Assembly: GCA_020627535.1 (NCBI GenBank)
Contig: JAHDGU010000010.1
Span: forward strand, 62,001-126,000
Direction of reading: 5' to 3'
Origin: Saprospiraceae bacterium
Lineage (GTDB): Bacteria; Bacteroidota; Bacteroidia; Chitinophagales; Saprospiraceae
DNA: 64,000 nucleotides
Translations under genes and position numbers: made by a program
Shown: positions 15,019 through 54,613 of the stretch, piece after piece
Layout of the letters: the number at the start of each line of letters is the position of its first letter
How positions within the stretch are numbered: position 1 is the first letter of the stretch
Notes under the pieces: model-generated
Seen by the model: only the letters and a program-made list of their open reading frames with translations
What the model was told of the DNA's origin: nothing
The model's database searches: none

Positions 15019-17401
15019 TGAGTTTTTGGACTGGGCCGTGGGCCTCATCAGACAGCAACTGGAAAAAGTACAGTCCTGCAGGTAGCTCTTCTCCAAATGT
15101 GATCATGGCCTCTGATACGACAGATTCTTGGATCAGTTGTCCTTGTGCATCTCGAAGCTGCCAACTGAGTTGATCGCTGATAAGAGCCTCGTCCAATAGA
15201 ATCTCAAAGATGTCCTGACTTGGATTGGGTAATACTTGAGCCGCCAAGCTTTCATCAAGCTGCAAAGTCGCAGTACTCTCAGATTCAAACACACGGAAAT
15301 TATCGATTCCAGCCTCCACTGCATCGTCGAAACCGCTCTCACTCGTGATGAATCGTATCCGCATATCTGTTGTAGCCTCTAGGTGATCAGACACCAAGAT
15401 CTCTCCTGAGTCAAACCACTGATTGGGCGAGGGAAACTCATTGCGTATTGTGTCGATCACTACGCTGGTAATGCCGTTATCTAGTACAACGACCATTTCC
15501 TCAGTTGTCGGGTTACCCTGAAAGTCACTGGCCCAGTACCAGTGCTCATAGCTCAGGGCAGGACGCTCATAGCTCGTGAGGTCAAAGCTCGGCGACTCAA
15601 GTATCGTGGTACCAAAGACAAATCCAGCATTGAAATCTGCAGTATTTGCTGTCACAAAACACTGGGAACCTAGATCATCACTATCATCCTCAGGTGCCAG
15701 CAATATCTGACCATCGGGGGATGTGACGGCTATCGGGTTGCCTCTCTCCCACTCACCAGAAAATCCTTGTAGGGATGTTGTCCATCCAAGATCTAGGCTA
15801 AAGACATCAGTGATACCAGCAAAAAGCTCGATCGTCAAGCTTTGGTTACTCGGCGATGACTCGAAGTTTTGTGCATTGATAAATTGATATTCGTACCCCC
15901 ACTGACCGACAACAAGATCATAAGTGCCGATGGTAAAATCTGGAATGGCTACAATTCCACCAGCATCAGCCTCATACTCCGCTGAAAAGCCATCTGTTTC
16001 AATCATGACTTTGGACCCTGGAAGTGGCATGCTCGTCGCTGCATCTATCACCCGAAGTTCAAGAGCGACAGTCGGCAATCTCTTCAGCTCAAAATCCACC
16101 AAGGTCACCTCCTCTGAAGCCAGCTCAATACTGTCAATCGTCTTGGGCTCATAGCCAAAGACACTTGCAGTAGCCGAAAAATAACCCGTATCCACTGTGC
16201 CTGTTTTGTAACTTCCGTCCACGCCGGAGTTCTCAAAAGTCAAGAGGGTCGTACCTGACATCTCGACGCGTGCATTAAAAATACCGATCCCTGTCACGCT
16301 ATCCTTCACGACTCCTTCCAAAAACGAAGCTCTCTTGTATGTCGGGCCCAGCACCACAAGTCCACTATTCATATCACCGATCAAGATATTACCTGATGGC
16401 AAAAATGGATACGCTCCCCATGCTCCGGCAAATCCTACTGCATCTGGGAAGAAAGTATCAAAGTTTCCTACTTCCACAAGATTATCTGGACGACTAGCAT
16501 CTACGACGATACAACCATCCGTATAGTAGGAGATAATCAGGTAGTCATCCCACACATGCACATTGTGAGGCACTACGCCGTCCCCGAGAGTTGCTGTAGG
16601 TCTATAAGCGTCCAAAAACTTGATATCGTCCAGATCACTCACGTCATAGGCTGCAACCGGCGCATTGCCTAGCTCGTCCGTGGTAAATACCGTCAGTCCA
16701 TCATCTGATAGCCATGCATTGTGCGTAAACTCAAACGGAGTCGCCTGTGTCGCAAGCAGCTCTACACTGTCCTTATCACTGACATCGTAAATACCAAGTA
16801 CACCAATATTGATCTCACTGCTGTAGGCGATATTATCACGTACATAGATATCATGGCTATACTCTGGGGCGCCAAGCCCCACGACACGCGGGGTATCTGG
16901 ATTGGTAAATACATCCACAAATAGAAGTCCACCATTGTTGGCATCACAACCTGAGAGATAGGCGTAGCCAAACTCATCGATATAGATGTTATGACAGGTG
17001 TTGACGGGGGCTTGTCCTTCAAAGAAGTCAGTAGTATTTCTCCAGCTCACTGTATCTGGCAGGTCAGAAAGATCGATGACCAGCAGACCATCAGTCGTAC
17101 CTGCTTCATCAGCCGTCACATAGGCATGACTCCCCCATGTCTTGATATCCCTCCAAGTACTTCCTTGCTGAGGAATAAAGACCACCTCCTGTGGGTCTCT
17201 CGGATCAGTTACATTGACCACAGACACACCATCAAATGTGCCCATGATCGCATATTCACTGCTATCAGGTGCCACATAGCCCCATATGTCATTTCCGACA
17301 CTTTCGTACGGGAAGTTTGACAAAAACTCAATATTGAGCTGGGCGGTCATTGTTGAAAGTCCAAGACACAAGGAAAAGAAAAGGGTAAAGATTGATTTCA
17401 C
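15008..17401 (-). CDS. Choice-of-anchor B secreted protein with T9SS sorting domain
   Basis: Signal peptide MKSIFTLFFSLCLGLSTMTA, then about 340 residues of choice-of-anchor B/LVIVD beta-propeller repeats (YAIMGTFDGVSVVNVTDP, LLVIDLSDLP, NTCHNIYIDE, HNAWLSDDG). A carboxypeptidase-regulatory-like segment follows (GVVKDSVTGIGIFNARVEM), then a jelly-roll-like domain and a type A T9SS tail (VLPNPSQDIFEILL to ELPAGLYFFQL). Expected to be exported across the outer membrane and attached or released; the function of the propeller is unknown. The last 11 bases overlap the end of the helicase gene. No terminator is seen between the two convergent genes. Confidence 0.9.
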   Translation of the reverse strand: MKSIFTLFFSLCLGLSTMTAQLNIEFLSNFPYESVGNDIWGYVAPDSSEYAIMGTFDGVSVVNVTDPRDPQEVVFIPQQGSTWRDIKTWGSHAYVTADEAGTTDGLLVIDLSDLPDTVSWRNTTDFFEGQAPVNTCHNIYIDEFGYAYLSGCDANNGGLLFVDVFTNPDTPRVVGLGAPEYSHDIYVRDNIAYSSEINIGVLGIYDVSDKDSVELLATQATPFEFTHNAWLSDDGLTVFTTDELGNAPVAAYDVSDLDDIKFLDAYRPTATLGDGVVPHNVHVWDDYLIISYYTDGCIVVDASRPDNLVEVGNFDTFFPDAVGFAGAWGAYPFLPSGNILIGDMNSGLVVLGPTYKRASFLEGVVKDSVTGIGIFNARVEMSGTTLLTFENSGVDGSYKTGTVDTGYFSATASVFGYEPKTIDSIELASEEVTLVDFELKRLPTVALELRVIDAATSMPLPGSKVMIETDGFSAEYEADAGGIVAIPDFTIGTYDLVVGQWGYEYQFINAQNFESSPSNQSLTIELFAGITDVFSLDLGWTTSLQGFSGEWERGNPIAVTSPDGQILLAPEDDSDDLGSQCFVTANTADFNAGFVFGTTILESPSFDLTSYERPALSYEHWYWASDFQGNPTTEEMVVVLDNGITSVVIDTIRNEFPSPNQWFDSGEILVSDHLEATTDMRIRFITSESGFDDAVEAGIDNFRVFESESTATLQLDESLAAQVLPNPSQDIFEILLDEALISDQLSWQLRDAQGQLIQESVVSEAMITFGEELPAGLYFFQLLSDEAHGPVQKLIKQ

Positions 17402-53185: not shown

Positions 53186-53214
53186 AAAAGGCCCGTACAA
53201 CGTACGAGCCTTTT
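53186..53214 (-). terminator. Terminator downstream of the AT-hook gene extension
   Basis: A 13-bp stem (53186-53198 with 53202-53214), loop of 3, one C-A mismatch on the plus strand that becomes a U-G pair in the minus-strand RNA, then T5. It is 22 bases after the stop at 53237 but about 290 bases after the stop at 53505, which supports translation through to 53237. Confidence 0.85.
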
Positions 53215-53236: not shown

Positions 53237-53504
53237 TTAATCCTCACCCATTACCGTGTCCATAAATCTTCTAAAAAGAGATTTTCTCTCAATTGCCTTT
53301 GGCTGTTCACCTTGAGCAGTTGAAGATTTCGTTGCATTGCTCTTGGCAGCAGTCTCGGTCTTTGCAGGCACTTCTACATTAGCTTTTAGACCCGTTTTTG
53401 ACGCTACCTTGCTTGGCTGCTGAGCAGGTGCAACTTGGAACTCTGTCAAGTTTGTGCTTTTCTTAATCCTTTGATCAGAAACTGGAGAGGACTTGGATGG
53501 AGGA
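53237..53504 (-). CDS. C-terminal extension of the AT-hook protein in the +1 frame
   Basis: On the minus strand the frame one base ahead of the AT-hook frame is open past the AT-hook stop for about 89 codons to TAA/TGA at 53237. It has sensible composition (NPPSKSSPVSDQRIKKST, TEFQVAPAQQPSKVASKT) and a distinctive end, KSLFRRFMDTVMGED. It has no ATG near its beginning (a TTG at about 53445 is the only candidate), so a +1 frameshift near 53505, or a one-base indel, would join it to the AT-hook protein. A real continuation is inferred from the terminator position. Confidence 0.5.
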
Positions 53505-54143
53505 TTAACTCCCAGATTTGGTTGAGCTTTTCTCAGCTGTCTTTGCTTTGGGCGGACGCCCTCTTCTAGCTGCAGTTTTTTTAGCTGCAGTTTTTTTAGC
53601 TGCAGTACTTTTCGTTTTATTGGTGCTACCCTTTGGTCTACCGCGCTTCTTTGGCGCTGCCTTGGTTGCGGTGGCAGATTTTGCAGTAGTCTTTTTGTTG
53701 GTACTACCCTTTGGTCTACCGCGCTTCGTTGGCGCTGCTTTGGTCGCTGTGGCAGATTTTGCAGCAGTCTTTTTGTTGGCACTACCCTTTGGTCTACCGC
53801 GCTTCTTTGGCGCTGCTTTTTTTGGCGTTGCTTCTTGGGCTGCAGGCTTATTTGCTGGAGCCTTCTTAGCAGTTGCTTTTTTGGGTGCAGCTTTCTTCTT
53901 AGCAGCAGCTCTTTTCTTTGCGGAGGTCGCACGCTTCTTGGCAGAAGCAGCAGCTTTTTTCGCATTAGCCTTTGCTTCTTTCTCAGCATCCTTAGCGGAG
54001 GCCTTCTTGCTCTTGAGCTCTTCTCTCAGACCTTTTAACTGGTCTCTGAGATGAGAACTCTTGAAGTTAAGTGCATCGAGATCATGCTTGTAAGAAGCTA
54101 CTAAGCTCTCCAGCTGCTCGATGGACAAATCAGAAATTTTCAT
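53505..54143 (-). CDS. AT-hook, Lys/Ala-rich histone-like DNA-binding protein
   Basis: The N-terminal ~50 residues form a coiled coil (MKISDLSIEQLESLVASYKH, then RDQLKGLREELKSKKASAKD). A Lys/Ala histone H1-like stretch (KKRAAAKKKAAPKKATAKKA) and four AT-hook motifs follow (three KRGRPKGS and one RRGRPP). It should bind the minor groove of AT-rich DNA and act in nucleoid structure. The frame ends in SSTKSGS at 53505 without a terminator nearby; see the extension entry. Tandem ACTGCAGCT-A7 repeats near 53570-53600 could promote slippage. Confidence 0.8.
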   Translation of the reverse strand: MKISDLSIEQLESLVASYKHDLDALNFKSSHLRDQLKGLREELKSKKASAKDAEKEAKANAKKAAASAKKRATSAKKRAAAKKKAAPKKATAKKAPANKPAAQEATPKKAAPKKRGRPKGSANKKTAAKSATATKAAPTKRGRPKGSTNKKTTAKSATATKAAPKKRGRPKGSTNKTKSTAAKKTAAKKTAARRGRPPKAKTAEKSSTKSGS

Positions 54144-54250: not shown

Positions 54251-54613
54251 ATGCAAAAATGTCTCAACTGCAATGAAGAATTTATCGGCAGATCCGATAA
54301 AAAGTATTGCTCTGATCAGTGCCGCAGCGAAGCATATAACAAGAAAAATGTCAAGTCGTCAAAGTACATGAGAGATGTCCACAAGATCCTCCAGCGCAAT
54401 CGACAGATACTCATGAAACTCAATCCCAGTGGTAAGGCAAGAGTCCATCGAGATCAGCTCAACAAGCATGGTTATCGCTTCGACTTCTTTACCAACATAT
54501 ACACTACTCGTGCTGGTAAAGAGTATTACTTCTGTTACGAGCACGGCTATATCCAGACCGGTGATGATTTCTTCACTCTAGTGGTAAGAGATGTTGAAAA
54601 ACTCGATCCTTAG
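54251..54613 (+). CDS. Zinc-ribbon protein, DUF2116-like N-terminus (120 aa)
   Basis: The N-terminal zinc ribbon is CLNCNEEFIGRSDKKYCSDQ-C (CxxC and CxxxC pairs). The rest is a ~75-residue domain (RDVHKILQRNRQILMKLNPS, then KEYYFCYEHGYIQTGDDFFT) that recurs in Bacteroidota proteins of unknown function. Probably a nucleic-acid-associated cytosolic protein. Divergent from the AT-hook gene, sharing the promoter region. Confidence 0.8.
   Translation: MQKCLNCNEEFIGRSDKKYCSDQCRSEAYNKKNVKSSKYMRDVHKILQRNRQILMKLNPSGKARVHRDQLNKHGYRFDFFTNIYTTRAGKEYYFCYEHGYIQTGDDFFTLVVRDVEKLDP

Follow-up and report, generated by a model that had tools for sequence, protein, structure and literature searches.

The locus and the AT-hook gene

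The window, that is the whole stretch of 64,000 nucleotides analysed from a Saprospiraceae contig, carries on its reverse strand a gene for an AT-hook protein, a long open stretch that runs on in the +1 frame past the stop codon of that gene, and an intrinsic terminator (Table 1). A sequence-only reading had placed the end of the AT-hook frame at 53505, where GGG AGT TAA T was indeed found, and had described a +1 continuation of about 89 codons reaching 53237; the continuation, hereafter the tail, has 89 codons (53506-53240) and ends in TAA at 53239-53237.

Table 1. Features of the AT-hook locus, in positions of the window
Feature	Positions	Strand	Details and basis
Zero-frame AT-hook ORF	53505..54143	-	212 aa, ATG at 54143, TAA at 53507-53505; orthologue L004 and profile matches
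Family-wide N-terminal segment, 47 residues	54003..54143	-	Alignment A2; match in 82 of 398 genomes
Three KRGRPKGS AT-hooks, 78-bp tandem repeat	53625..53804	-	Repeat unit a multiple of 3
Two A7 tracts (AAA AAA ACT), 15-bp repeat	53576..53597	-	Nearest possibly slippery tracts
Fourth hook RRGRPPK, zero frame	53547..53567	-	Sequence reading
Junction AGT TAA TCC	53502..53510	-	Zero-frame stop; +1 continuation opens with AAT at 53506-53504
+1-frame tail	53237..53506	-	89 codons and stop; K/A/S/T-rich; LF..FM..VM pattern at end
Intrinsic terminator stem-loop, then T run	53188..53212	-	Fold z = -4.35

The zero-frame protein has both the N-terminal segment and the AT-hooks of an unnamed family, and matched the N-terminal profile of that family with E = 3.8e-17. 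From the hooks, the 212-aa protein is predicted to bind DNA; the Pfam AT_hook model scored 12.5 bits in it (below the cut-off of 17.4) and 31.6 bits, above the cut-off, in the orthologue from the same genus. Since the unit of the hook repeat is a multiple of three, a change in repeat number keeps the frame. The fourth hook is read in the zero frame, so the frame break lies 3' of it, barring an earlier slip that skips that hook. The gene has a further A7 tract at 53823-53817. Divergent from the AT-hook gene is a gene for a small, zinc-finger-like protein (54251-54613), which was matched in 215 of 298 family genomes and adjoins the AT-hook gene in both members of the genus.

The protein family

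The N-terminal profile matched roughly one in five genomes of the taxonomic family; outside it there were seven further matches, which are excluded from the frame counts. Loci were read in 79 of the 82 genomes with a match (G337, G078 and G398 were left out), and five that were masked or cut by a contig end were set aside, which left 74 complete loci. The C-terminal domain of the family was in frame in 56 of these, split in one (G172) and absent from 17; with the split gene included it was present in 57 of 74, some of the matches being weak (28-30 bits). One of the domain-less loci (L151) lacks hooks and the other 16, the window gene among them, encode hook proteins. The architecture seen across the family (loci L077-L154) is the N-terminal segment, a basic linker with or without AT-hooks, and a C-terminal domain that by its look may be winged-helix-like; no Pfam or NCBIfam family matched this domain in the members tried. 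By our hook pattern, 19 of the 56 in-frame domain loci have at least two hook cores and 21 have none, so the label "hook family" suits only part of the family.

The window protein has 15 residues between its last hook and its C-terminus. In the 15 other domain-less hook proteins this distance was 4-20 residues, and the short product, which falls within that range, looks like a complete, tailless family member by itself. No match to the family C-terminal domain above 8 bits was detected downstream of the window gene on the same strand, and no tail-like extension was seen in the 15 other domain-less hook proteins (14 judged by eye, plus the same-genus orthologue).

That orthologue (L004, genome G001) is the one relative in the genus sample of two genomes, so that the tail is present in one of two. 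Gene order around it matches that of the window, with the zinc-finger gene on one side and an amidohydrolase gene on the other. Its product ends in KRRGRPPKKK, a terminator follows 41 nt on, and there is no tail. In G001, 315 nt separate the gene end from the stop of the convergent amidohydrolase gene; the corresponding distance in the window is 311 nt from the tail stop or 579 nt from the zero-frame stop. These distances hint, and no more than hint, that the tail is part of the gene, as they come from two genomes whose intergenic DNA is unalignable: aligning the congener's intergenic DNA to the window gave nothing significant.

Coding signal and homologues of the tail

The tail reads NPPSKSS...KSLFRRFMDTVMGED. 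The last upstream stop in the +1 frame is at 54028, and the frame is open from there to the tail stop. When the last 88 tail codons were shuffled 20,000 times with dinucleotides preserved, the +1 frame was open in 1.6% of the shuffles, and either of two frames in 3.0%. The other five frames have 3-7 stops each across the stretch; an overlapping gene on the opposite strand was ruled out, each of its frames holding 3-4 stops. Openness further upstream is a different matter. Among 43 family loci with hook arrays of at least 50 codons, the +1 frame was open throughout in 13 and the +2 frame in none, so the open +1 frame across the window hook array carries no evidence and should be treated with caution, as a matter of composition. 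The 250-aa +1 ORF that begins at ATG 53989 was rejected as a protein for that reason.

Codon usage gives little support for the tail as coding sequence. With the penalty for the final stop removed, its codon score was +3.8 over 88 codons; the other five frames, discounted in the same way, scored lower. The mean for 115 stretches of the same length from 19 long window ORFs was 12.4 (sd 5.5). The synonymous score is unsupportive, at 0.5 against a window-gene mean of 6.2, with two other frames of the tail stretch scoring higher (5.4 and 2.7). The amphipathic pattern at the tail end is weak evidence for coding: its moment was reached by 1.8-29% of shuffles, varying with the stretch chosen.

An open frame of at least 89 codons follows the stop in seven of the other 73 complete loci. 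One of these is the split G172 gene. In five (L101, L126, L143, L150 and L152) a Met occurs among the first 60 codons, and by eye these frames resemble the start of the next gene. The seventh, L079, has 125 open codons with no Met, which resemble tRNA-gene sequence. L079 shows that a long open frame 3' of a stop can occur outside the gene, rarely yet really.

Searches with the tail gave no convincing match in 100 relatives (best foreign E 0.04), and its 30-residue end gave a best foreign E of 0.14 in 120 family genomes. Against Pfam the best score was 14.1 bits (cut-off 27), NCBIfam held no family for it, and the search against genome contigs confirmed no relative. Among 395 genomes of the class there was no convincing relative; two matches had E values of 0.006 and 0.008, which are not meaningful given the chance expectation across 395 single-genome searches, and they stop at tail residues 78 and 85. 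The first lies in a basic region of an ORF, ribbon-helix-helix-like by eye, that adjoins a ParA-like gene. The second (L161, G771:C9) is the C-terminus of a long protein named AsmA-like by eye, where KSKFGKFIDKI aligns with KSLFRRFMDTV of the tail (local E 0.03). This end is a candidate lead, not proof, for the tail as the remnant of another gene.

Terminator spacing

The sequence-only reading had the terminator 22 bases after the second stop and about 290 after the first; we measured the start of the stem at 24 nt past the tail stop and 292 nt past the zero-frame stop. A terminator-like stem was found within 400 nt of the stop in 64 of 75 family loci, and in 58 of those 64 it lay within 66 nt (the scan counted 18 domain-less loci, including the hookless L151 and the partly masked L097). 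At 60 random places in the window, such a stem was found within 100 nt in three cases and within 400 nt in 12. The distance of 292 nt is the second largest value in the family scan. Since the spacing is ordinary when counted from the +1 stop and an outlier when counted from the zero-frame stop, the tail is probably more than chance, and the position of the terminator is the strongest evidence for it. The G172 terminator lies 297 nt from the zero-frame stop and 5 nt from the +1 stop. Terminator distance may serve more widely as a hint to which stop a gene used, as it sets apart the two split genes of the family.

A second split gene and the A tracts of the family

In the G172 gene (L099/L065, G172:C124, about 16,000-16,700) the array ends GCC TCA AAA AAA AAG TAG, with the domain placed after it in the +1 frame; in G030, a congener, the domain is in one frame. 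The A9 of G172 is the only tract of at least nine in the 74 zero-frame family ORFs. Compared with shuffles of synonymous codons within each gene, the ORFs hold one tract of at least nine (20.4 in shuffles), 10 of at least eight (41.8) and 79 of at least seven (104.3). These lysine-rich genes hold about a quarter of the tracts of at least eight that the shuffles give. The family overall avoids long A tracts, some genes excepted: A7 tracts numbered three in the window gene (2.4 expected) and four in the G001 gene (1.3 expected). A single A9 at the single break of this kind suggests an indel in the homopolymer, or a read error, more than it does slippage. The two +1 splits, window and G172, lean towards a shared mechanism, but they number only two.

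Recoding signals

The genome of the window has a canonical programmed +1 site in its own prfB (L155, G000:C19, about 103,300), AGGAGG TAT CTT TGA C with a perfect AGGAGG, and the same site is printed for prfB of Flavobacterium johnsoniae in the excerpt consulted of PMC8710568. At the AT-hook junction, TCT GGG AGT TAA TCC, there was no CTT or similar slip codon and no YTT_TRA_C. A spaced SD-like stimulator was also missing there, as GGGAG overlaps the last sense codon and does not stand three bases before a slip codon. The fold of 53530-53420 had a z of +0.35, so no unusual RNA structure was seen at the junction. No conserved tail or shift site was found in the genus orthologue, the 100 relatives, the 395 class genomes or the genome contigs. 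Slippage on a homopolymer at the zero-frame stop itself was rejected, there being no tract there, and so was phase variation by repeat number, the units of 78 and 15 bp both keeping the frame.

The heptamer AAA_AAA_A is in phase at 53597 and 53582. It is one of seven A-rich consensus heptamers in the GeneTack study, in which the criterion for transcriptional slippage is a homopolymer of at least eight or two shorter ones combined (PMC3711429). The longest A tract in the window gene is seven, and the two A7 tracts in question are 8 bases apart. In the parts of the GeneTack study consulted here, 146 of 19,430 clusters of genes with frame transitions are classed as apparent recoding; unclustered transitions, which are enriched near 3' ends, are put down mostly to errors, indels or overlapping genes, orphan genes with recoding are allowed for among them, and pseudogene clusters are also treated (PMC3711429).

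The two forms of a nucleoid protein that the sequence-only reading had proposed to arise by programmed +1 frameshift therefore found no backing, since a prfB-type slippery site at the stop, a spaced stimulator, unusual RNA structure and conservation were all missing. Its check, a shift conserved among orthologues, came out the same way: the only same-genus orthologue (G001) has no tail, and no conservation was found in the other genomes searched.

Origin of the tail

The tail is probably a real or once-real coding sequence. The reading that we prefer, at a probability of about 70%, is a complete, tailless 212-aa protein followed by a once-coding tail that was put out of frame by an indel, a fusion, or a base-calling or assembly error. 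The tail would be an old or very recently used coding stretch, either the gene's own C-terminal extension or the 3' remnant of a gene joined to it. One of these ordinary events would have broken the frame 3' of the last hook (about 53547) and before the stop at 53505. Ribosomes would now halt at TAA 53505, and the tail would be transcribed as 3' UTR as far as the terminator. We infer both the mutational origin and the earlier coding use of the tail, and for its former reading this is so because no relative with the tail in frame was found among the relatives, class genomes and genome contigs. Besides this lack of a relative, three findings speak against the preferred reading: the junction is not homopolymeric, so that the odds of a typical sequencing error are lower; the codon usage of the tail is not gene-like; and the G172 split is also +1, as a programmed mechanism would give. 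Of the two origins named by the sequence-only reading, recent mutation comes close to this best reading, and a programmed frameshift found no support in signals or conservation.

Among the alternatives, chance opening of the +1 frame in low-complexity DNA is unlikely. The low codon and synonymous scores, the missing tail homologues and an opening probability of 1.6-3% with many opportunities in 64 kb are as it would predict, and one of the 73 other complete loci (L079) has a longer Met-less frame 3' of its stop; the position of the terminator, at a gene-like distance from the tail stop and an outlying one from the zero-frame stop, argues against it, as does, weakly, the amphipathic tail end. 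The tail might instead be a small gene of its own, or a downstream cistron coupled to the first, read from a weak start such as TTG 53449 (70 codons), a possibility to which we give little credence. This TTG, 57 nt into the tail, is the nearest candidate start seen and has A's at -3 and -6, which are preferred before starts in this phylum. The sequence-only reading had seen no good start for the second frame, and this proved right, the first ATG of the tail being its codon 82; moreover, the frame is open 5' of the TTG as well, and no convincing homologues were found.

A programmed +1 frameshift, on AGT TAA T, on GGG A or on the upstream A7 tracts, or transcriptional slippage, would yield a short and a tailed form; this we regard as improbable. 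The tail frame is open up to the terminator, A7 heptamers stand in phase upstream, prfB shows that the genome uses a programmed +1 shift, and the G172 gene is split in the same direction. Against it stand the missing prfB-type YTT_TRA_C with a spaced SD-like sequence, the ordinary fold of the junction, a probably poor re-pairing from AGT to GTT, and the lack of a conserved tail or site in the genomes searched. The gene has no A tract above seven, the family has fewer tracts of at least eight than shuffles give, and slipping at the A7 tracts would drop the fourth hook. Equally improbable is the extension of this idea to the family, in which +1 slips would make a hook-only form and a form with hooks and a C-terminal part, the latter being an amphipathic tail unique to the window and the winged-helix-like domain in G172. 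Were slippage true, bacterial chromatin proteins would be tuned by it. Two forms of one bacterial AT-hook protein arising by frameshift would, to our knowledge, then be without precedent; our literature search turned up no such case either, and on AT-hook frameshifts in this phylum it found nothing on point.

Comparison with known systems

The window protein resembles the histone H1-like DNA-binding protein family NF038053 in its K/A-rich composition (E 0.00045), but its 20.5 bits stand against a cut-off of 80 and it is not a member. With its own family it shares the N-terminal segment and the AT-hooks, and the domain is missing from 15 other hook proteins as well; unlike the other complete loci read, it has a 270-bp, non-domain +1 stretch between stop and terminator. 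It shares with prfB a stop codon with a +1 continuation. Unlike prfB, it has no CTT slippery codon and no AGGAGG three bases upstream, its stop is TAA and not TGA, the shift was not found conserved, and the short form would be a whole protein and not a short stub. The unclustered frame-transition genes of GeneTack, as far as the excerpt of PMC3711429 describes them, differ from the window tail, which has no homologue to prove the old frame; they are alike in being single cases near the 3' end, with no conserved site and with the short product intact.
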